From an uncultured Alphaproteobacteria bacterium (GTDB lineage Bacteria; Pseudomonadota; Alphaproteobacteria; CADEGL01): a DNA stretch of 33,340 nt. The notes under the pieces are model-generated. The model was given only the letters and a program-made list of their open reading frames with translations. It was not told the origin of the DNA and ran no database searches. Every line of letters begins with the position of its first letter. Position 1 is the stretch's first letter. The stretch lies in NCBI GenBank assembly GCA_902826885.1, contig CADEGL010000023.1, positions 4,621 to 37,960 of the forward strand. The letters run 5' to 3'. Made by a program: the position numbers and the translations under genes. Below are positions 1 through 15,932 of this stretch, one piece after another.

Positions 1-2010
1 GCGGCCTTGATCGGTCCTTATTCGAGCGGCAAGACCACCCTTCTTGAAAACATCCTTCACGCTTCCGGCGCGACCCAGCGCCGCGGCACGGTGAAGGAGG
101 GCAATCTGGTAGGCGATTCCTCGGCGGAAAGCCGGCACCGCCAGATGAGCACCGAGATCAACGTGGCTTCGGCCGACTTCATGGGCGAGGCCTGGACCTT
201 CCTCGATTGCCCCGGCTCCATCGAGCTGTTGCAGGAAACCTATAACGCGTTGCTGGTCGCCGATGTGGCCGTGCTGGTGGTCGAGCCCGCGCCCGACCGC
301 GCGCGCGCCATAGCCCCCTTGCTCAAGTTCCTCGACGATCGCGAAATCCCGCACATGATCTTCGTCAACAAGCTGGATCACGCGGCGGCGCCCGTGCGCC
401 AGGTGCTGGAAGCCTTGCAGACGGTCTCGGAGCGGCCGCTGGTGCTGCGCCAGGTACCCATCGTGGCGGGCGACCAGGTCACCGGCTATGTCGATTTGGT
501 CAGCGAGCGGGCCTACAGCTACAAGCCCGGCCAAGCGTCCGACCTGATCGCGATCCCCGAGGCCGAGAAGGGTGGCGAGAAGGACGCGCGCCAGAAGCTC
601 TTGGAGGCCCTGGCCGACTTCGACGACGCGCTGCTCGAAAAGTTGCTTGAGGACACGGTGCCGCCGACCGGCGACATCTACGCGCACTTAACCGCGAATT
701 TGCAGAACGACCGCATCGTTCCAGTCTTCATGGGCGCGGCGGAAAAGGGCAGCGGCGTGCGCCGGCTGTTGAAGGCACTGCGCCACGAGACGCCGGACGT
801 GCGCTCCGCGGCCGCGCGCCTGGGCGTCGACGCCGCGCGCGGCGAGGCGCTGGCGCAAGTGTTCAAGACCCAGCATGTGCCCCATTCCGGCAAGCTGACC
901 TTCGCGCGGGTGTTGCGTGGCGAGCTGGCCGACGGCGCGGCCGTGGGTGGCGAGCGGATCGGCGGCATCTTCCGCGTGATGGGTGCGCAGAGCGCGAAAT
1001 TGCCCAAGGTGCAGGCGGGCATGGTGGTGGCGCTGGGCCGCATGGAGGGCGCCAAGACGGGCCAGGTGCTGACGGCGTCGGGCAAGGCGCCGGGCGGGAT
1101 GGCCGAATGGCCGAAACCTCTGAAGCCGGTCTACGGGCTGGCGCTGTCGGCCGAGAACCGGAACGACGAGGTGAAGCTCACGGCCGCGCTGGGGCGGTTG
1201 ATGGAAGAAGATCCGTCGCTGTCGATCGAACATGATTCCGGCATGCATCAGCTCATTCTCTGGGGCCAGGGCGAGATCCAGCTTCAGATCGCGGGCGAGC
1301 GGCTGAAGAGCAAGTTCAATCTGCCCGTGCGGATGCAGCGCGCTGTGGTGCCCTACAAGGAAACGATCCGTAAGCCGGCCTCCCAGCACGCGCGGCACAA
1401 GAAGCAAAGCGGTGGGCATGGTCAATTCGGCGACGTGACCTTGGAGATCCGGCCGCTCGGGCGCGGCGCAGGCTTCAACTTCGTCGATAAGGTGGTGGGT
1501 GGCGCGGTGCCGCGTCAGTTCATTCCTTCCGTCGAGATCGGCGTGCGCGATTATCTGAACCGCGGGCCGCTGGGCTTCCCGGTGGTGGATGTCGAAGTGG
1601 CGCTGGTCGATGGTCAGCACCATTCCGTGGACAGTTCAGATATGGCCTTCCGCACGGCCGCGCGCATGGGCATGTCCGAGGGCATGACGAAATGCGAGCC
1701 GGTATTACTGGAGCCGATTCTGAAAGTGTCGATTGCGGCGCCGACGGAGTTCACCGCGAACGTGCAGCGGCTGGTGACGGGGCGGCGCGGTCATATTTTG
1801 GGCTTTCAGCCGCGCGAGGGCTGGAAAGGATGGGACGAGACCGTTGCCCACCTGCCGCAGAAGGAGATGGCCGATTTGATTGTCGAACTACGCTCCTTGA
1901 CCATGGGCGTCGGCACGTTCGACTGGGGTTTCGACCACCTGCAAGAGCTGACGGGCCGCCTGGCCGACGAGGTCGTGCAGCGTCATACGAAGCAGGTCGC
2001 GGCGCAGTAA
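1..2010 (+). CDS. Elongation factor G-like translational GTPase, 5' truncated
   Basis: The reading frame is open from the first base (two alanine codons precede the TTG at position 7), so the true start lies before the window. About 669 residues are visible. Seen motifs, numbered from the TTG codon, are a P-loop GPYSSGKT (3-10), DCPG (67-70) in place of the usual DTPG, and NKLD (121-124). EF-G-type domains II to V follow to the C-terminus. The switch I region reads STEINVAS and differs from canonical EF-G. This places it in the EF-G-like paralogue group common in Alphaproteobacteria rather than the fusA gene of the str operon; no ribosomal protein genes lie beside it. Members bind GTP and probably act on ribosomes, but the exact role is not settled. 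It ends 4 bases from the convergent crcB stop. I am confident of the family and unsure of the function. Confidence 0.88.
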   Translation, partial: AALIGPYSSGKTTLLENILHASGATQRRGTVKEGNLVGDSSAESRHRQMSTEINVASADFMGEAWTFLDCPGSIELLQETYNALLVADVAVLVVEPAPDRARAIAPLLKFLDDREIPHMIFVNKLDHAAAPVRQVLEALQTVSERPLVLRQVPIVAGDQVTGYVDLVSERAYSYKPGQASDLIAIPEAEKGGEKDARQKLLEALADFDDALLEKLLEDTVPPTGDIYAHLTANLQNDRIVPVFMGAAEKGSGVRRLLKALRHETPDVRSAAARLGVDAARGEALAQVFKTQHVPHSGKLTFARVLRGELADGAAVGGERIGGIFRVMGAQSAKLPKVQAGMVVALGRMEGAKTGQVLTASGKAPGGMAEWPKPLKPVYGLALSAENRNDEVKLTAALGRLMEEDPSLSIEHDSGMHQLILWGQGEIQLQIAGERLKSKFNLPVRMQRAVVPYKETIRKPASQHARHKKQSGGHGQFGDVTLEIRPLGRGAGFNFVDKVVGGAVPRQFIPSVEIGVRDYLNRGPLGFPVVDVEVALVDGQHHSVDSSDMAFRTAARMGMSEGMTKCEPVLLEPILKVSIAAPTEFTANVQRLVTGRRGHILGFQPREGWKGWDETVAHLPQKEMADLIVELRSLTMGVGTFDWGFDHLQELTGRLADEVVQRHTKQVAAQ

Positions 2011-2466: not shown

Positions 2467-2497
2467 GTCCGGACGGACTCCCACCGCGGATCGCTCG

Positions 2498-2556
2498 CGC
2501 GGTAGGAGTCATCAGCCTCGTCGGCGGTTATCGGGGGACCCCATCCCCATCGCCCA
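2498..2556 (-). promoter_or_regulatory. Fluoride riboswitch (crcB motif)
   Basis: On the minus strand the leader begins with GGCGATGGGG (2554-2545), continues through TCCCCC and AACCGCC (2529-2523), and ends with GCTGATGACTCCTAC (2516-2502). These are the conserved 5' and 3' blocks of the crcB-motif aptamer in the right order and spacing. The aptamer binds fluoride through magnesium ions. Its 3' segment (2510-2498) can instead pair with 2488-2476 in a 13-bp hairpin with one G-T pair, giving a plausible alternative fold next to the terminator. The aptamer call is by motif recognition; the switching geometry is inference. Confidence 0.92.
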
Positions 2557-2558
2557 GA

Positions 2559-6738: not shown

Positions 6739-8169
6739 TCACGGCTGCGGCCGGCCGTCGATCCAGGCGATCCGCAGCAGATTGGTGGCGCCGGGCGTGC
6801 CGAACGGCATGCCCGCGGTGATCACCACGCGGTCGCCCACTCCGCCGAAGCCTTCCACGCTGGCGGACGTGGTCGCGCGTTCCACCATCTCTTCCACACT
6901 GGTCACGTCGGGTGTGACGACGCCATGAACGCCCCATGCGAGCGTCAGCCGCCGCGCGGTCGCGATGGACGGGGTGAGAGAGATGATCGGCACGCTGGGC
7001 CGTTCGCGCGAGGCACGCAGCGTGGTCGAACCGGAGTTGGTGTAGGTCGCGATGGCCGAGGCGGAGACCGTGTGCGCGACCTGCCGCGCGGCGGCGGTGA
7101 TGGCGTCGTTGGCCGTAGCCTGAGGGTCTGGGTGCTCCGCGTCCATGATCTGGCGGCAATTGGGGTCGCGCTCCACCTGGGTCACGATGCGGTTCATCAT
7201 CGTGACCGCGTCGACCGCGTATTTACCCGATGCCGTCTCGGCCGAGAGCATGACGGCATCGGCGCCCTCGTAGATGGCCGTCGCCACGTCGGAAGCTTCC
7301 GCGCGTGTCGGTGTGGGCAGATGGACCATCGACTCCAGCATCTGGGTCGCCACCACCACGGGTTTTCCGGCTTTGCGGCAGGCGCGCACGATGCGTTTTT
7401 GCAGGCTGGGCACGTTCTCCGGCGGCAATTCCACGCCTAGGTCGCCGCGCGCGACCATCACCGCGTCGGACAGTTCGATGATCTCGTCCAGCCGGTCGAA
7501 GGCGGCGGGTTTTTCTAGCTTCGCCATGATGCTCGCGCGGCCGCCGATCAGCTTGCGCGCCTCGGCCACGTCCTCCGGCCGTTGAACGAAGGACAGCGCG
7601 ACCCAATCCACGCCCAGTTCCAGGCCGAAGGCCAGATCCGCGTGATCCTTCGCGGTCAGCGGCGATAGCGGCAGGATCGCGCCGGGCACGTTGACGCCCT
7701 TGCGGTCGGACAGGATGCCGCCCGTCATGATCTCGGTCTCCGCCCGGTCTTTGGCGCAATCGACCACGCGCAGGCGAATGCGCCCGTCGTCCAGCAGCAA
7801 TTCCATACCGGGCTTCAAGGCCTGGAAGATTTCCGGGTGCGGCAGCGACACGCGTTGCCGGGTGCCCGGCGATGTGTCCATGTCGAGCAGGAAACGCTCG
7901 CCATCCCGCAGTTCGACCTGGCCACCGCTGAACTGGCCGACGCGCAGCTTTGGCCCTTGCAGGTCCATCAGCACGCCGATCGGCCGGTCATGCGCCTTCT
8001 CGACCTCGCGCACGATTTCATACCGGCGGCGGTGATCGTCGTGGGTGCCGTGGCTGAAATTGAGGCGGAAGACGTCTGCCCCGGCCTCGAACAGCTTGGT
8101 GATTCGGCCCAAATCGTTGGACGACGGTCCGAGCGTGGCGATGATCTTGGCGTTGCGCGCGCGTCGCAT
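6739..8169 (-). CDS. pyk: Pyruvate kinase (TtuE-like context)
   Basis: This 476-residue protein converts PEP and ADP to pyruvate and ATP. Family landmarks are R35 in RLNFSHG, LMDLQGPK (67-74), catalytic K217 and metal-binding E219 in MAKLEK, MVARGDLGVE (238-247, with D243) and MLSAETASGKY (307-317). The C-terminal allosteric domain is complete. It lies 50 bases after the ttuD-type gene, on the same strand, with AGGG 7 bases before the ATG. A ttuD/pyruvate kinase pair also occurs in the tartrate-utilisation (ttu) region of Agrobacterium vitis, where the kinase is called TtuE. That context suggests a catabolic role for glycerate-derived carbon, though it may also be the only pyruvate kinase of the cell. 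Confidence 0.95.
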   Translation of the reverse strand: MRRARNAKIIATLGPSSNDLGRITKLFEAGADVFRLNFSHGTHDDHRRRYEIVREVEKAHDRPIGVLMDLQGPKLRVGQFSGGQVELRDGERFLLDMDTSPGTRQRVSLPHPEIFQALKPGMELLLDDGRIRLRVVDCAKDRAETEIMTGGILSDRKGVNVPGAILPLSPLTAKDHADLAFGLELGVDWVALSFVQRPEDVAEARKLIGGRASIMAKLEKPAAFDRLDEIIELSDAVMVARGDLGVELPPENVPSLQKRIVRACRKAGKPVVVATQMLESMVHLPTPTRAEASDVATAIYEGADAVMLSAETASGKYAVDAVTMMNRIVTQVERDPNCRQIMDAEHPDPQATANDAITAAARQVAHTVSASAIATYTNSGSTTLRASRERPSVPIISLTPSIATARRLTLAWGVHGVVTPDVTSVEEMVERATTSASVEGFGGVGDRVVITAGMPFGTPGATNLLRIAWIDGRPQP

Positions 8170-8219: not shown

Positions 8220-9572
8220 TCAGCTTCCGCCGTTCCCGATCAGGATGACGCGTAAATCATTCACATTCGTGAAGGTCGGCCCGGTCATCAGCAAATCGTC
8301 CAGCGTCTGGAAGTATTTGTAGCTGTCGTTCACGGCCAGCATGGCGGCGGTATCCAGCCCCTTGGCGCGCGCGCGTACCAGCGTGTCGGGCGCGATCAGG
8401 GCGCCCGCGTTGTCTTCGCTGCCGTCGATGCCGTCGGTGTCACCGGCCAGCGCGTTGATCTCCGGCGCGCCGTTCAACTCCAGCGCCATGGCCATCATGT
8501 ACTCGGCGTTTGGTCCGCCGCGGCCTTCGCCCCGGATGGTCACGGTCAGTTCGCCGCCGGACAGGATCGCGCGCGGCTTGCCGCCTTCGCGGGCCAAATC
8601 CAGCGCCATGCGGGCATGCTCGCGTCCCACCTCGCGCGCCTCGCCTTCGATACGGTCTCCCATCACGACGGGTTCGTAACCGAGCGCGCGGGCTTTCGCG
8701 GTCGCGGCGTTCAGCGCCTGGCGCGGCGTCGCGATGATGGCAGCGGAGGCGCGGGCCAAACGCGGGTCGCCGGGCTTTGGCGTTTCGTCCGCGCCAGCGT
8801 CCAGCCGCGCGCGTACCGAGGCGGGCACGGCGAAGCCGTACTTCGCGATGACCGCGCGCGCGTCGGCATAGGAGGTGGGGTCGGGCACGGTCGGGCCGGA
8901 ACCGATGGTGGCGGGATCGTCGCCCGGCACGTCGGAGATCAAGAGCGTCACAACCTGCGCCGGATGGGCCGCGGCGGCCAGGCGTCCACCCTTGATGGCG
9001 GACAGGTGTTTGCGCACCGTATTGATCTCGCCGATGGCGGCGCCGCTGCGCAGAAGCGCGCGGTTAACGGCCTGCTTGTCCTCGAGCGTCATGCCATCGG
9101 CGGGCATGGTCAGCAGGGCCGATGCACCGCCCGAGACCAGGCACAGCACCATGTCATCGGCCGAGAGGCCTTGGACGGCTTGCAGGATGCGCCCAGCCGC
9201 CGCGCGCCCGCGCGCGTCCGGCACCGGATGGGATGCTTCGATCATCTCGATGTGCTCGCAGGGCACGCCGTAGCCGTCGCGCGTCACGACCACGCCCTGG
9301 AGCGGTCCGGGGTAATTTTTCTCCACCGCGCGCGCCATGGCGGCGGCGGCCTTGCCCGCGCCGACCACGATCGTGCGGCCCTTGGGCGGCTTCGGCAGAT
9401 GGGGCGGCACGCACTGTTCCGCCTGGGCCGCGGCGACCGCGGCCCGGAAGATTTCCAGAAGCTGTGGGCGGATGTTCAGGCGACGGCCGGTATCAATCGC
9501 CGCGTGGCCGGGCGCTGATGCTGCCCGCGCGGTTGCGCGCGGCGGCGCGCCGGCCCGATTCCGCCGGCGCAT
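8220..9572 (-). CDS. ttuD: Glycerate 2-kinase/hydroxypyruvate reductase, TtuD/MOFRL family
   Basis: The product has the N-terminal DUF4147 domain and the C-terminal MOFRL domain. Visible segments are GAGKAAAAMARA, LVSGGASALL, NTVRKHLSAIKGGRLA, DVPGDDPATIGSGPT, the MOFRL start SGGELTVTIRGEGRGGPNAEY and AGDTDGIDGSEDNAGA. Such proteins phosphorylate glycerate to 2-phosphoglycerate; several were first described as hydroxypyruvate reductases. The start is uncertain. The ATG at 9572 has no ribosome site and overlaps the Rieske gene by 80 bases. A GTG at 9581 is no better. Homology to the family begins near RRLNIRPQLL, just after an in-frame ATT (9497-9495) that overlaps the Rieske stop, which would give about 425 residues, the family's normal length. 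Confidence 0.9.
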   Translation of the reverse strand: MRRRNRAGAPPRATARAASAPGHAAIDTGRRLNIRPQLLEIFRAAVAAAQAEQCVPPHLPKPPKGRTIVVGAGKAAAAMARAVEKNYPGPLQGVVVTRDGYGVPCEHIEMIEASHPVPDARGRAAAGRILQAVQGLSADDMVLCLVSGGASALLTMPADGMTLEDKQAVNRALLRSGAAIGEINTVRKHLSAIKGGRLAAAAHPAQVVTLLISDVPGDDPATIGSGPTVPDPTSYADARAVIAKYGFAVPASVRARLDAGADETPKPGDPRLARASAAIIATPRQALNAATAKARALGYEPVVMGDRIEGEAREVGREHARMALDLAREGGKPRAILSGGELTVTIRGEGRGGPNAEYMMAMALELNGAPEINALAGDTDGIDGSEDNAGALIAPDTLVRARAKGLDTAAMLAVNDSYKYFQTLDDLLMTGPTFTNVNDLRVILIGNGGS

Positions 9573-10698
9573 CGACGACACGGTCGAGCAGCCAGTTGGC
9601 GATGCGGTGCACCGCGCGCTCGCGATACGAGAACGGTCCCTGCCGGTGCTTCTCCGACATGGCGCCCCTGTGCTGGGCCTCCGAGATCACGTTGTCCTCT
9701 TCCAGGCCCAGTTGCCAGCGCTTGAAATAGGGCTTTGCCTTCTCCCAAAAATCCGGCAAGGCCGCACTCTCTTTCGGGAAGCAGAAGCCGAAATTGATGT
9801 GTGTCCGGTGCGGCCCCTTGGGGTAGATGCGCAACCACCACATGGAATCGGTCGCGCAGGCGAACTGGGTGCTGGGATAGACGCAGGTGAAATAGGTGCC
9901 CTCGGCGGGGCGGCCATGGATGCCTTTGATGCGCGGCAGTGGCGCCGTCTCGCCGGGCAAGACCGATACGCTTTCATCGCCCGGCAGGAAGATGGTTTCC
10001 CAGTCGCCTTTGGTTTCCAGGTCCACGCCTTGCTGATCACCCAGCGTCGTCCGATGCACCGTGCCCGTATGATAGGACTCCAGCGCGTTTTCGAGCAGGA
10101 ACTTCCAGTTGCAGGCGACGTGGTAGTCCACCTTCTTCACGCAGACCATGTCGTCGTGATTGTAGGGACCAAGCTGTTCGGGCAGATCGCCCAACTGTTC
10201 CAGCAAGGTCGGGCCGCTGTCGGAGAAATTCACGAATAGAAATCCGGCCCAGCTGTCGAGGCGCAGGGGCACCAGCCCGAATGCATCCTTGTCGAATTTG
10301 GTCTTCTCCATGTTGGGGGCGCCCATCAGGCGGCCGTCCAGGCCATAGACCCAGCTATGGTAGGGGCAGGTGATGGCGCGGCAGTTGCCCTTCTCCTCGC
10401 TGAGGAGCTGGACACCGCGATGGCGGCAGGTGTTGGCGAAGGCGCGTACTGCGCCGTCGCGCCCGCGGATGAGCACGACCGAACCGCCCGGCATGTCGAC
10501 GGTCAGATAGTCGCCCGCGTTCGGAATCTCGTCCGCGCGCCCCGCGAACGACCAGGTCCTCAGAAAGACGCGCTCGACCTCGCGCTTGTAGAACGCGTCG
10601 GATGTGTAGCACCAGGACGGCAGGGTGCGGGCTTCCAGGAGCGGCTTGCGGACCTCGCGATACGTCGCCGGGTCGAACATCGTGTTGGTGTCCATCAT
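9493..10698 (-). CDS. Rieske oxygenase, catalytic (alpha) subunit
   Basis: The 401-residue protein has a Rieske [2Fe-2S] domain with C91/H93 in CRHRG and C111/H114 in CPYHSW. A catalytic domain follows, whose mononuclear iron ligands are H210 and H215 (ENALESYHTGTVH), with D335 in EEDNV the likely third ligand. Such enzymes hydroxylate, dihydroxylate or N/O-demethylate their substrate with electrons from a partner reductase, and no reductase gene is in the window. GGAGG lies 6 bases before tandem ATG codons (10698, 10695). The last 25 residues (arginine/alanine-rich) go beyond the usual family end near NWLLDRV and coincide with the ttuD overlap. The gene starts 18 bases after hyi. The substrate is unknown, but the operon suggests one that yields a C2 or C3 acid. 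Confidence 0.9.
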   Translation of the reverse strand: MMDTNTMFDPATYREVRKPLLEARTLPSWCYTSDAFYKREVERVFLRTWSFAGRADEIPNAGDYLTVDMPGGSVVLIRGRDGAVRAFANTCRHRGVQLLSEEKGNCRAITCPYHSWVYGLDGRLMGAPNMEKTKFDKDAFGLVPLRLDSWAGFLFVNFSDSGPTLLEQLGDLPEQLGPYNHDDMVCVKKVDYHVACNWKFLLENALESYHTGTVHRTTLGDQQGVDLETKGDWETIFLPGDESVSVLPGETAPLPRIKGIHGRPAEGTYFTCVYPSTQFACATDSMWWLRIYPKGPHRTHINFGFCFPKESAALPDFWEKAKPYFKRWQLGLEEDNVISEAQHRGAMSEKHRQGPFSYRERAVHRIANWLLDRVVDAPAESGRRAAARNRAGSISARPRGD

Positions 10699-10716: not shown

Positions 10717-11502
10717 CTACCGCGCGGCGCGCCAGGGCGCCATCCAGCTCAGCCCCTCGACCGTACCGGCGCGTGGCCGGTATTCGCAGCCGACCCATCC
10801 CGCATAGCCCAGCGCGTCGAGCTTGCCAAGCACGAAGGGATAGTTGATCTCGCCCGTGCCCGGCTCGTGGCGGCCGGGCGTATCGGCGATCTGGACATGG
10901 CCGATACGGGGCAGCAGACGCTCGATGGTGGGCGCCAAGTCTCCCTCCATGATCTGCATATGATAGACGTCGTACTGCAGCCGTACGTTGGGCGCGCCGA
11001 TTTCGTCCAACAGCGATACGGCTTGCGCGCTGTAGTTGAGGTAGTAGCCGGGAATATCGCGGTTGTTGATCGGCTCGATCATCACTTCGACCTTCGCCTT
11101 CGCGGCTTTCGCCGCCAATTCCCGCAGATTGCGCACATAGGTTTCACGCAAGATGGCGGGATTGACGCCCTTGGGCATGATGCCGGCCATGCAGTGGACG
11201 CGCGGTGCCCGCAGCGCGACGGCATAATCGAGCGCCAGCGCGCAGGTTTTGCGGAAATCGTCCACGCGATCGGGCAGGCAGGCCAAGCCGCGCTCGCCCG
11301 CGGCCCAGTCTCCCGCCGGCATGTTGTGGAGCGCGACAAGCAGGCCGTGCCGGCCTAGGCGCTCGACGATGGCGTCCTTGGGGACCTCGTAGGGGTTCTG
11401 GATTTCCACGGCGCGGAAGCCGGCTTTCGCGGCGGCTTCGAAGCGGTCGAGAAAGGGCAGTTCGGTGAACAGCCAGGAAATATTCGCGTCGAAGTGGGGC
11501 AT
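10717..11502 (-). CDS. hyi: Hydroxypyruvate isomerase
   Basis: This 261-residue TIM-barrel protein interconverts hydroxypyruvate and tartronate semialdehyde. The two catalytic glutamates of the family appear as E143 (MIEPINNRDIPGYYL) and E240 (GCEYRP), the same numbers as in E. coli Hyi. The metal-site region around D178 (YDVYHMQ) and the segment GHVQIADTPGRHEPGTGEI are also typical. The ATG at 11502 is chosen over earlier in-frame starts because the family N-terminus is M-P-x-F-x-A-N-x-S-W and because it lies 4 bases after the MFS stop, which implies translational coupling. With the downstream ttuD-type gene it forms the glycerate branch of glyoxylate/hydroxypyruvate metabolism. No gcl or glxR gene is present nearby. 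Confidence 0.93.
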   Translation of the reverse strand: MPHFDANISWLFTELPFLDRFEAAAKAGFRAVEIQNPYEVPKDAIVERLGRHGLLVALHNMPAGDWAAGERGLACLPDRVDDFRKTCALALDYAVALRAPRVHCMAGIMPKGVNPAILRETYVRNLRELAAKAAKAKVEVMIEPINNRDIPGYYLNYSAQAVSLLDEIGAPNVRLQYDVYHMQIMEGDLAPTIERLLPRIGHVQIADTPGRHEPGTGEINYPFVLGKLDALGYAGWVGCEYRPRAGTVEGLSWMAPWRAAR

Positions 11503-11506
11503 CGTG

Positions 11507-12751
11507 TCAGGTCTTCTGCTCGCGGCACCAGGTTTCGCGGATGAACAGGCTTGCAACGAACGCCACGGCGAGCGGCGCGAACAAGGTGGCGAAGGCCAAT
11601 TGATAAGCGCTTTCGGAGTATACACGCGCGCCCGCGATCATGGCTCCTTCCCAATGATGGTCCAGGATCACGCCGATAATGGGCTGGATCAGAGCGCCGC
11701 CGCCGATCACGCAGGTGTTGATGATGCCCATGGCCGCGCCCAGCGCCTGGGGGCTGTTGACCTCGCGCCCCGTGGCGAAGCCGACGATGATGCCGGAGCC
11801 GCCGAGCCCAGAGAGGAACAGCATCGCGCCGAATAGAAGCGGCGACACGCCGGGCAGATAGAACGCCACGGCGTATCCCACGGCCTGCACACCGATGGCG
11901 AACCACATGACAGGCTTGCGCCGGCCGATCTTGTCGGACACCCAGCCCAGGAGCGGGCTGCCCACCGCCATGCCGGCGATCTGGATCATGGCGATCAACG
12001 CGGCGTGGGCGCGCTCGTGGCCATGAACCTGGATCAGGTACGGCACGTTCCACAGGGACGTGACGCCGAGGAACGGCGACACCACCGCGCCGGTGTAAAG
12101 GGTGATGATCCAGGTCTGCGGGTTCGCCGACGCGAGCCGGAGGGAATGGAGCAGTCCCAGCCGCGCGCCATGCCTGACGGTTTGCGGCGCGGGGTGATCG
12201 CGCACGAGAATCCAGCAAGCCAACGCCAGGACGGCGCCAGCGGCCGCGGTGCCCAGCATAGGGCCTTGCCAGCCGACCGCGTCGACCAGCAACGCCAGGG
12301 GCGCACCCGCGAGCGCCGATCCCACCATCCCGCCCAGCGCGGTCAGGCCGCTGAGCGAGGCGAAGCGGCGGGGCGGGAACCAGCGCGCCACCAGCGCCAG
12401 CGACGCAACCCAGCCGAAGCCCGAGCCGAAGCCGATCAAGAGGCGGCCTGCATAGGCCTGATTCAGCGTGTCGGCGGTCGCGAACAACAAGCAGCCGATC
12501 GCGGCGATGAGCGCGGTCCAGGTCAGGATGCGGCGCGGGCCGAAATTGTCGACCAGCACGCCGACGCCGATCTGTTCCGCCGCATAAGCGTAGAAATAGA
12601 ACGCCGCCAGGTTGCCCAAAAGCCCCGCGCCGACGGAGAAATGGCGCATCAGCTCGTCCGTCATCACGGCGGGCGCCGAGCGCAGGAAGAACGCGTAGCA
12701 AAAGAACAGCGCGCCCGCGCTCCACACCAGCCACGGGCGCGCGCCGCTCAC
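11507..12751 (-). CDS. MFS transporter
   Basis: The 414-residue protein has about twelve membrane segments in two halves, with the MFS loop motif present as VDNFGPRRI after helix 2 and VSDKIGRRKP after helix 8. A much longer open frame reaches 13072, but that extension is arginine-rich out-of-frame shadow of the upstream gene. The GTG at 12751 gives a normal start and a 4-base GTGA overlap with the preceding EamA stop. Position directly before hyi and the Rieske oxygenase suggests it imports the operon's substrate, probably an organic acid or a methylated or hydroxylated compound. Substrate specificity cannot be read from the sequence. Confidence 0.9.
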   Translation of the reverse strand: MSGARPWLVWSAGALFFCYAFFLRSAPAVMTDELMRHFSVGAGLLGNLAAFYFYAYAAEQIGVGVLVDNFGPRRILTWTALIAAIGCLLFATADTLNQAYAGRLLIGFGSGFGWVASLALVARWFPPRRFASLSGLTALGGMVGSALAGAPLALLVDAVGWQGPMLGTAAAGAVLALACWILVRDHPAPQTVRHGARLGLLHSLRLASANPQTWIITLYTGAVVSPFLGVTSLWNVPYLIQVHGHERAHAALIAMIQIAGMAVGSPLLGWVSDKIGRRKPVMWFAIGVQAVGYAVAFYLPGVSPLLFGAMLFLSGLGGSGIIVGFATGREVNSPQALGAAMGIINTCVIGGGALIQPIIGVILDHHWEGAMIAGARVYSESAYQLAFATLFAPLAVAFVASLFIRETWCREQKT

Positions 12752-13656
12752 CGCCGCATGCTCCCGCGCCGCGCGATGAAGATGCCGCCCAGGAGGATCG
12801 CTCCGCCCACGATCTGGAATGGGCCGATGGGTTCGCCCAAAATCAGCCATGCCATGATCGCGGCGGTCAACGGTTGGATCAGGAGCGTGACCGCCGACAG
12901 CGAAGCGGGCAGATGGGCCAGCGCGAAGGTGATGGCGCCTTGCGCGCCCGCCTGGCACAGCACGGCCAGCGCGACGAGCGCCGCCCAGCCGCCCCAGGTT
13001 GTTGGAAAGATCGTGTCGCTCATCGCCATCGCCACGGGCAGCAGAACGACCGACGCCACGATCGCGCTCCACGTCATGATTTCGGCGGTGCTACGCCGCG
13101 CGCGCATGCGTGCGACCACCATGAAGTAGCCGCCATAGAAGATCGCCGTCACCGCCGCCAGGATGTCGCCCTTCAGGCTGGAAAGGCCGAGGGTGAACTT
13201 ATCGCCGACCAGCACCACCATGCCCGCGACGGCCGTGGCCATGCCGATCAGGAACAAGCGGTTGGCGCGTTCGCGGAACAGAATCCACGCGCCCAGCGTG
13301 ACGACGACCGGATAGATGTTGGCGATCACGGTCGAGTTCGCCACGGACGTCCATTCCAGCGACCAATGCCAGAGCGACAGCTCGATGGCGTAAAGAAGTC
13401 CGGCGATCACCAGCCCGGCGCTCCATGCGCGCGGATATACGGTGCCTGCGGGCGCCGCCGCGCGTTTGCGCCGTTCGATCAGATGCCAGGTGGCCAGCAC
13501 CGGGAAGGCGAACGCCATGCGCCAGAAGGCCGAGGCCATTGGCCCCACTTCGGACAGGCGCACCAGGATGCCGGAGAAGCCGATGGTGATGCCGGCGATG
13601 AAAAGCAGCGTCAACGCGAGCTTCGCGTGGCGGTCTCCGCCGAGAGGTTTGGCCAT
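12748..13656 (-). CDS. EamA/DMT family transporter (second copy)
   Basis: The 302-residue protein has ten membrane segments in two EamA repeats. LLFIAGITIGFSGILVRLSE opens repeat one, and FALAHLPASLSAVTLLIQPL and GEPIGPFQIVGGAILLGGI end repeat two. Drug/metabolite exporters of this family move amino acids, nucleosides or organic solutes. The ATG at 13656 overlaps the stop of the first EamA gene by one base (TGATG), so the two are coupled. The proteins align along their whole length (for example SGILVRLSEVGPMASAFWRMAFA against SGTMVRLSETGPTATAFWRMALA), which points to tandem duplication. They may work as a heteromeric pair, but this is inference. Confidence 0.9.
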   Translation of the reverse strand: MAKPLGGDRHAKLALTLLFIAGITIGFSGILVRLSEVGPMASAFWRMAFAFPVLATWHLIERRKRAAAPAGTVYPRAWSAGLVIAGLLYAIELSLWHWSLEWTSVANSTVIANIYPVVVTLGAWILFRERANRLFLIGMATAVAGMVVLVGDKFTLGLSSLKGDILAAVTAIFYGGYFMVVARMRARRSTAEIMTWSAIVASVVLLPVAMAMSDTIFPTTWGGWAALVALAVLCQAGAQGAITFALAHLPASLSAVTLLIQPLTAAIMAWLILGEPIGPFQIVGGAILLGGIFIARRGSMRR

Positions 13657-14650: not shown

Positions 14651-15865
14651 TCAGTCGGTGCCGACGCCCAGCAGCGAGGCCATGTGCTTCAACCCCTTGC
14701 CGCCTTCCTGGGCGTCGAAACGCGGCAGTTCGCCGGGGCCATAATGTCCTTTCTCGAACATATCGTAGCCCTCGAGCTGGTCCGAACCCTTGCCCAGGAT
14801 CTCGCCGCCGGTTTTCCGGTAGTGATCGAGCACGGCTTTCAACCCGTAATGCTGGACCGGGCAGACCTTGGTGCAGACGTTGCACTCGGCGAAGCGCAAG
14901 ACGGGCAGGCAGCGGTCGGCCACGACTTTGTACTTGGTCACGCCGTGCCAATTGACCTTGATCTTGGACAAAGCGCGGCCAGGGCAGCGCTGCACGCAGA
15001 CCTGGCATTTTTCACACAAGGTGTTGACGCCGATATCGACCGGCTTGTCGTGGGTGACCGGCGCGTCGGTGGACAGGCCCATGATGCGCACCCGGCTGCC
15101 GAACTCGGCCGTCAGCACGGTGCCGTTGGCGCCCATCTGGCCCAAGCCCGCATCGACGGCGTAAGGCAGGATCGGCGCCAGCATCTTTTCGCCCGGTAAG
15201 CCCGTGCCCGCGATGAACTGGACACGATAGCCCTTGGAACGGATGAAATCGGCCACCTCGAGCGCGGCCAGGGCCAAGGCCAAGCTGGTGTCATAGGAAT
15301 GCACGTCCCAGTCCACGCTGGGCGCCCGGTCCGTGGTTTCCCAATCGAAGGCGCGGCACAGCACGATGGCATGCTTGAAAAGTGCGTCGCCCTTTTGCTC
15401 CAGCGCGACGTATTTCCGGTCGAAGCGCGTGAAGCCGATCAGATCGGCGCCCGAGGATAAGGCCTTCTCGCGGATTGCTTTGGTGAAGTCGGGTGAGGGG
15501 TCGATGGTCTCGGCAGCCGGGAGCTCGTGATAGGAAAAGGCCCGCGCGTTCACGCGCGCCAGCAGATCGCCGTATTTATCGCCCAGGATACGATAGGTCT
15601 CGCCCACCTTGCCCGGCGTGGCCTCGATCACCTTGTGGTAGGTCTGGTTCAGCTTGCCGATCTTGAAGTTGGGTTCCGGATAGTGGCGGCCGAAGAAGGT
15701 TTCCTGCGCGCGGTCGCGCACGACGCCGGGCACGCTGCGAAGGTCTTCGGGCACGTCGTCAATGGTCACTTTCGGAGCGCGGCGCGGATCGCGGCGCGGC
15801 GTCATGTCGTCGGCGCGCGGGAACGTCTCGAATTTGCGGACGTTCGTGTTCGGCAGCGTGTGCAT
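14651..15865 (-). CDS. Reductive dehalogenase/QueG-like double [4Fe-4S] protein
   Basis: The 404-residue protein has a nitroreductase-fold-like core (about 120-270) with the segment LGQMGANGTVLTAEFGSRVR that recalls AGLGxxGxNxxLxxPxFGS of RdhA and QueG. A bacterial-ferredoxin domain follows, with C284/C287/C290/C294 and C319/C328/C331/C335, enough for two [4Fe-4S] clusters. Both relatives use a cobalamin and two such clusters. There is no Tat signal and no RdhB-type anchor gene, so it is cytoplasmic and unlikely to serve organohalide respiration. It is longer at the N-terminus than QueG (about 120 extra residues). GGAGGAGG lies 5-7 bases before the ATG at 15865. The reaction and substrate are unknown; B12 binding is inferred from family. 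Confidence 0.8.
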   Translation of the reverse strand: MHTLPNTNVRKFETFPRADDMTPRRDPRRAPKVTIDDVPEDLRSVPGVVRDRAQETFFGRHYPEPNFKIGKLNQTYHKVIEATPGKVGETYRILGDKYGDLLARVNARAFSYHELPAAETIDPSPDFTKAIREKALSSGADLIGFTRFDRKYVALEQKGDALFKHAIVLCRAFDWETTDRAPSVDWDVHSYDTSLALALAALEVADFIRSKGYRVQFIAGTGLPGEKMLAPILPYAVDAGLGQMGANGTVLTAEFGSRVRIMGLSTDAPVTHDKPVDIGVNTLCEKCQVCVQRCPGRALSKIKVNWHGVTKYKVVADRCLPVLRFAECNVCTKVCPVQHYGLKAVLDHYRKTGGEILGKGSDQLEGYDMFEKGHYGPGELPRFDAQEGGKGLKHMASLLGVGTD

Positions 15866-15932
15866 TGGTCCTCCTCCAATGTTTCCAAGTCTATCGCCGC
15901 CGACGCGCCATTTTCCAGGCGCCCGTTTCGGC

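Follow-up and report, generated by a model that had tools for sequence, protein, structure and literature searches.

A putative soluble RdhA-type cobalamin enzyme of an alphaproteobacterial order, with serine at the usual place of the catalytic tyrosine

The window, i.e. the whole stretch of 33,340 nucleotides that was analysed, encodes on its minus strand a protein of 404 residues that resembles the reductive dehalogenases (RdhA) and, more distantly, QueG. The frame is a real gene under strong purifying selection, with a codon-position G+C of 0.63/0.43/0.85, which resembles that of other genes of the window, and a dN/dS of 0.053 against the ortholog at locus L003 (96.5% identical). The gene, its sites of interest and its neighbours lie as follows.

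14651..15865, minus strand: gene for the RdhA-like cobalamin/2x[4Fe-4S] protein, 404 aa, ATG start
15870..15877, minus strand: Shine-Dalgarno-like GGAGGAGG, read directly from the sequence, 4 bases ahead of the ATG
15512..15865, minus strand: N-terminal region, residues 1-118, of RdhA type and missing in QueG, delimited from fold alignment ranges
15269..15322, minus strand: motif PSVDWDVHSYDTSLALAL (residues 182-199), where the active-site helix (184-210) begins, near-invariant in orthologs
15293..15295, minus strand: Tyr191 codon, one turn before Ser194 and at the position of NpRdhA Met423, invariant in orthologs
15284..15286, minus strand: Ser194 codon, in the favoured alignment the catalytic Tyr column (PceA Tyr246, NpRdhA Tyr426)
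15188..15190, minus strand: Glu226 codon, near the place of PceA Asn272 and QueG Asp130, invariant in orthologs; the equivalence is uncertain, as the loop differs in length
15086..15088, minus strand: Arg260 codon, at the place of PceA Arg305 and NpRdhA Lys488
14984..15016, minus strand: cluster motif 1, C284-x2-C287-x2-C290-x3-C294
14861..14911, minus strand: cluster motif 2, C319 ... C328-x2-C331-x3-C335
13656..14558, minus strand: EamA transporter gene directly downstream of the RdhA-like gene, an order kept in L003 and L056
about 12748-13632: second EamA gene, next after the first
about 10717-11502, minus strand: 2-oxo-tetronate/hydroxypyruvate isomerase, in a same-strand run with the Rieske oxygenase
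9493..10698, minus strand: Rieske oxygenase alpha subunit
8220-9581, minus strand: glycerate 2-kinase-like protein, same-strand run
6739-8169, minus strand: pyruvate kinase, same-strand run

Elsewhere in the window, a fluoride riboswitch (RF01734, 55.2 bits; 2496-2557, minus strand) is found just ahead of a minus-strand ORF (2015-2512) that probably encodes a putative CrcB-type fluoride exporter.

The gene is present in all five genomes examined of the window's order. Matches at E 1e-20 were detected in 33 of 385 genomes of the class, but only the five of the order are orthologs, and the other matches are weak (<120 bits) and fall in open frames of 278-747 aa. A sixth ortholog was found in one of 400 Chloroflexota genomes (L004, 66% identity), and three further Chloroflexota genomes (G652, G671 and G498) carry nearly full-length relatives with 39-43% identity. 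A scan of genome contigs matched four loci; in each ortholog-bearing genome (n=6) the RDH model recovered this gene, and its other matches were QueG-like or very weak. One alphaproteobacterium (L059; G394:C11:33000-48000) harbours a tandem array of short RdhA-like paralogs, five or more in number, and each of the five L059 rows in the core alignment retains the catalytic Tyr. At L069 and L070 the main frame is accompanied by another RdhA-like frame that lacks the cluster-1 cysteine motif, the two being perhaps a split or degenerate pair.

The genes that surround the orthologs differ between lineages. In the window and in genome G399 (L056), the RdhA-like gene heads a same-strand run that continues with two EamA genes, an MFS transporter, the isomerase, the Rieske oxygenase, the glycerate 2-kinase-like protein and pyruvate kinase, so that the last four are all kept in L056; L003 shows the identical order as far as its contig extends, and there the isomerase and the oxygenase are kept. 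In L005 and L006 the RdhA-like gene starts 7 bases after an SDR gene, which itself follows a PhyH dioxygenase gene. A TPP enzyme is encoded downstream in L005, whose best NCBIfam matches are acetolactate-synthase-like, none of them above cut-off, and a link of the L005/L006 cluster to glyoxylate is at most suggestive. Two amidohydrolase genes precede the ortholog in L004, and in the Chloroflexota relative L099 (G652) the gene immediately upstream encodes a Rieske oxygenase. The neighbourhood looks catabolic in character, and neither the window type nor the L005/L006 type indicates an organohalide substrate.

The host is apparently an aquatic aerobe. COX1 was detected in all six ortholog-bearing genomes, in agreement with the earlier note, which had suggested an enzyme of an aerobe. 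Cobalamin riboswitches are likewise present in all six, and in the window's own genome the frame behind one of them (L112, on contig C55) resembles by eye what we take to be a B12-dependent ribonucleotide reductase. A full-length CobN, taken as a marker of cobalamin synthesis, was found in G400 and G401 alone, and the own genome has only a partial match of 48 bits.

The motifs that had first drawn attention to the protein, eight cysteines in two ferredoxin motifs and a core of the pattern LGxxGxNGxxLxxxFGSxVR, were both located. The core pattern spans residues 241-260, and all eight cysteines are conserved in the six orthologs, arranged in the two [4Fe-4S] motifs typical of RdhA (CxxCxxCxxxCP, the second ending in CxxCxxxCP). 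The same note had described a cytoplasmic protein devoid of respiratory features, and this description holds: the N-terminal 120 residues contain neither a Tat motif nor a hydrophobic stretch (the highest mean over 19 residues is 0.1), and no small membrane ORF of the RdhB type lies within about 2 kb of the gene, so the Tat signal and RdhB anchor that mark a respiratory RdhA are both missing. Two small ORFs nearby have one hydrophobic window each, and both are antisense to called genes. The duplicated B12 domain of NpRdhA and BhbA, with or without a fused reductase, is also lacking in this protein of 404 aa with a single core, and no reductase was seen fused to it or adjacent to its gene.

Profile scores place the protein at a distance from both named families. 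It scores 83.4 bits with TIGR02486 (RDH), below the cut-off of 160.35, and about half of the cut-off is reached in all six ortholog-bearing genomes, with none above it; with TIGR00276 (QueG) it scores 35.6 bits, where the cut-off is 200, and none of the Pfam dehalogenase domains was found in the 404 residues at E 0.001. Its closest solved structures by sequence are PceA (4uqu, 8.9e-18), the RdhA of 8q4h (2e-15) and NpRdhA (2.8e-15), with QueG only at 8e-4. An AlphaFold2 model built from 41 sequences (pLDDT 80.1, pTM 0.83) predicts an RdhA fold with a B12-binding core and intact Fe-S motifs. In fold comparisons, the model matched NpRdhA with Z 27.0 (334 residues, 3.6 A), PceA with Z 25.0 (295 residues, 3.0 A) and QueG with Z 15.6 (199 residues, 3.0 A), where the aligned ranges were 14..401 on NpRdhA, 30..360 on PceA 5..413 and 123..375 on QueG. 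The earlier note had pointed to about 120 extra N-terminal residues relative to QueG. This extension is real but is no oddity: since matches to RdhA folds begin at residues 11-46 and the match to QueG only at 123-125, it corresponds to the ordinary N-terminal region of RdhA. Residues 46-84 are poorly modelled by pLDDT, and the approximately 69 residues beyond the second cluster are weakly modelled at their end.

For phylogenetic analysis, a core set of 104 frames was reduced to 80 rows by dropping two frames without the cysteine motif and merging identical cores, and a second tree used 38 of these rows, hand-picked to cover each group; both trees come from rapid searches and contain long branches. 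Family alignment A2 held 41 of 43 non-redundant rows (L081 and L024 were omitted as near-copies), and A3 held 28 rows. The orthologs form a distinct clade of their own, in which all six are united with support of 98-100 and next to which the three Chloroflexota relatives are placed (98), although its attachment on the RdhA backbone is not fixed by the trees. The NpRdhA/BhbA sequences (100), the Roseobacter short RdhAs (99) and an 18-row group of alphaproteobacterial short RdhAs (99) are separate groups of the 80-row tree. Among publications searched by title and abstract, no characterised member of the clade was found.

As to QueG, the earlier note had judged the protein too different to be called by that name and had advised looking for a separate queG in the genome. 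Such a gene was found, at full length, at G000:C3:102518-103516 (442.6 bits against the cut-off of 200), and the frame that adjoins it is, by eye, presumably Tgt. A full queG is also present in G398, G400 and G401, whereas G399 has no more than a fragment, located where a contig ends, and the Chloroflexota MAG G403 has none. That the protein might be a QueG paralog, or a second tRNA epoxyqueuosine reductase, could be argued from the weak match to the QueG profile and from the AU test on the 80-row tree, which leaves a sister relation standing (orthologs and all 11 QueGs on one side of a branch, p 0.105). However, the alignment with the QueG profile does not begin before the AGLG loop, Arg260 is present, the helix lacks the DYH motif of QueG, no Pfam hit corresponds to the C-terminal alpha-helical (HEAT) repeat domain, and grouping of the orthologs with four alphaproteobacterial QueGs was rejected in the 38-row tree (p 4.7e-5). 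With the separate queG and the weaker fold match, these results lead us to reject a QueG identity and to regard a paralog of that kind as highly improbable; because the 80-row tree is still compatible with QueG on the same side of a branch, the claim is limited to a position not inside QueG.

The active site is altered relative to that of other RdhA groups. In checking the catalytic Tyr and Lys/Arg, as the earlier note had advised, the Arg was found to be kept (Arg260 in six of six orthologs), but the Tyr is replaced by Ser194, again in all six, which had not been foreseen. This column is Tyr in 18/18 alphaproteobacterial short, 7/7 Roseobacter short, 12/12 NpRdhA-like and 7/8 respiratory rows, in 2/3 of the Chloroflexota relatives and in 6/15 ungrouped rows; the QueG rows have Tyr (10) or His (1) there. 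According to an excerpt of PMC4646009, the catalytic Tyr of QueG is that of the DYH motif, further along than the aligned column. Where the orthologs read YDTS, the nearest Tyr-bearing Chloroflexota relatives read FDTY, and Tyr191 of the orthologs takes the position of Met423 of NpRdhA, given as a pocket-lining residue in part of PMC7565698. The Chloroflexota relative at L061/L099 (G652) has neither the catalytic Tyr nor the Arg, with Met and His instead.

The alignment of this helix is itself open to two readings. With a PceA-like profile, hhalign brings Ser194 to the Tyr free of gaps, and with an NpRdhA-like profile it does the same after placing a single gap of two residues upstream. When the profile is that of the Roseobacter-short or the alphaproteobacterial-short group, two compensating 3-residue gaps are introduced by which Tyr191 meets the Tyr, so that two of the five profile alignments oppose the gap-free reading; the fifth, with QueG, stops short of the active-site helix, and a single-sequence phmmer alignment to NpRdhA shifts the helix in yet another manner. 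On the other side, the strand-to-helix length is 44 in all six orthologs, 7/7 Roseobacter-short, 12/18 alphaproteobacterial-short and 6/8 respiratory rows (46 in 12/12 NpRdhA-like rows), BLASTP aligns the site without gaps to L063, the nearest relative that has the Tyr, with YDTS over FDTY, and the AF2 helices of the window's protein (P0001, 184-210) and L013 (190-216) are equal in length, with Ser194 and the Tyr of L013 each as the eleventh residue. Owing to the equal spacing, the gap-free BLASTP alignment and the equal helices, we favour the reading in which Ser194 occupies the catalytic Tyr column, with a three-residue slip as the possible alternative.

A Ser in that column could be a sign of a reaction other than dehalogenation. 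One candidate is a class III cobalamin enzyme that removes an oxygen leaving group (epoxide, hydroxyl or ether) by reductive elimination, a QueG-like chemistry on an RdhA scaffold that would involve Ser at the Tyr site, invariant Glu226, Tyr191 and Arg260. The consistency of Ser194 in the orthologs against Tyr throughout three other RdhA groups (18/18, 7/7 and 12/12 rows) argues for it, as do neighbours such as dioxygenases, SDRs and hydroxypyruvate/glycerate-type genes and the position of Glu226, as far from the AGLG motif as the catalytic Asp of QueG when counted by eye. Yet that equivalence depends on a loop of variable length, Arg260 is kept though it is absent from QueG, and in a table of PMC11921367 an active RdhA, CfrA, has Cys at the Tyr246-type place and a Tyr four residues earlier; the Tyr246-type residue is thus not indispensable for dehalogenation, and an enzyme of this non-dehalogenating type seems rather doubtful. 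The same source, in the part available, gives a Tyr-to-Phe change in DcaA by which hydrogenolysis was lost and dihaloelimination enhanced. A further explanation, that of a short, Tat-less catabolic reductive dehalogenase of the usual sort that has merely diverged, draws on the same architecture and similar length found in the Roseobacter-type loci L010-L013, L015, L016 and L089 (open frames of 392-449 aa), of which L013 has CDICTKCADACP and CAICMRVCP, two motifs that PMC13101508 gives for Ros_A3X954. Identity to this group is only 22-25% over the alignment, a joint clade of the orthologs with four of its seven rows was rejected (p 0.0017, 38-row tree), and all seven retain the Tyr where the orthologs have Ser, which makes mere divergence unlikely.

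The reading that we prefer, and hold with some confidence, is that of a class III cobalamin reductase of the RdhA type, soluble and cytoplasmic. It would be catabolic or detoxifying and would carry out, in an aerobe, either dehalogenation or a reductive elimination of another kind. A cobalamin enzyme for reductive elimination in an aerobe had been proposed by the earlier note as well; the RdhA-like core, the fold and COX1 speak for that proposal, and the replacement of the usual catalytic Tyr by Ser is a feature that it did not anticipate. In its architecture the protein resembles a reductive dehalogenase. Because the curated score lies below its cut-off and the Tyr is missing, the protein is not filed as a proven reductive dehalogenase, and its activity is a predicted one. 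In the mechanism that we infer, from cobalamin binding to physiological role, the RdhA core would hold cobalamin in the base-off state, and single electrons would arrive from a ferredoxin-like donor via the two [4Fe-4S] clusters. The reduced cobalt would then take a leaving group, either a halide or some other group in a reductive elimination, off a small organic substrate, protonation may be aided by Arg260 and Tyr191, one helical turn from the usual Tyr246-type place, and the role would be catabolic or detoxifying in an aerobe. More tentatively, and only as one possibility, this could be an RdhA-derived clade in which the proton donor hopped one helical turn (194 to 191; FDTY vs YDTS) and the chemistry was redirected from hydrogenolytic dehalogenation, for example to reductive elimination in aerobic catabolism.

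Class III cobalamin enzymes in the literature examined carry out two reactions only, dehalogenation and epoxyqueuosine reduction. A clade found in five of five examined genomes of an aquatic, apparently aerobic alphaproteobacterial order, with its catalytic Tyr displaced, allows a direct test of the need for that Tyr and of the further reactions open to such enzymes. It might also point to a sink in oxygenated waters, so far overlooked, for organohalides of natural or human origin.

Compared with known systems, the protein shares with QueG the class III cobalamin fold and two [4Fe-4S] clusters, but differs from it in the low QueG profile score, the missing DYH motif and C-terminal repeat domain, and the possession of Arg260 and an RdhA-type N-terminus. 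PceA, the respiratory RdhA of S. multivorans, is its best PDB sequence match, has Arg305 in the place of Arg260 and aligns in the N-terminal region, whereas the Tat signal and RdhB are absent here, Tyr246 corresponds to Ser194 and the Asn272 region is altered. CfrA, the chloroform RdhA, is of the respiratory, Tat-exported type. Its Cys260 at the Tyr246-type place, its Tyr256 one turn earlier and its retained Arg recall the arrangement described here, a likeness drawn via the published table (PMC11921367). NpRdhA and BhbA lend the best fold match (Z 27) and a cytoplasmic location, and Ser190 equals Ser422 of NpRdhA; Tyr426, Lys488 and Met423 of NpRdhA are represented by Ser194, Arg260 and Tyr191, and the duplicated B12 domain and often fused reductase of these enzymes (about 700-1100 aa) are missing. 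These catabolic RdhAs are oxygen-tolerant, a property that the present protein, in an apparently aerobic host, would share. From the type of Ros_A3X954, a 2,6-dibromophenol debrominase according to part of PMC13101508, it is set apart by 22-25% identity, a separate clade, Ser for the catalytic Tyr and a longer loop before the AGLG motif; with Ros_A3X954 and Pararhodobacter A0A2T7UTL8 it shares a length of ~400 aa, one B12 core, two [4Fe-4S] motifs, a Tat-less N-terminus, an alphaproteobacterial host and the Arg of the catalytic pair.
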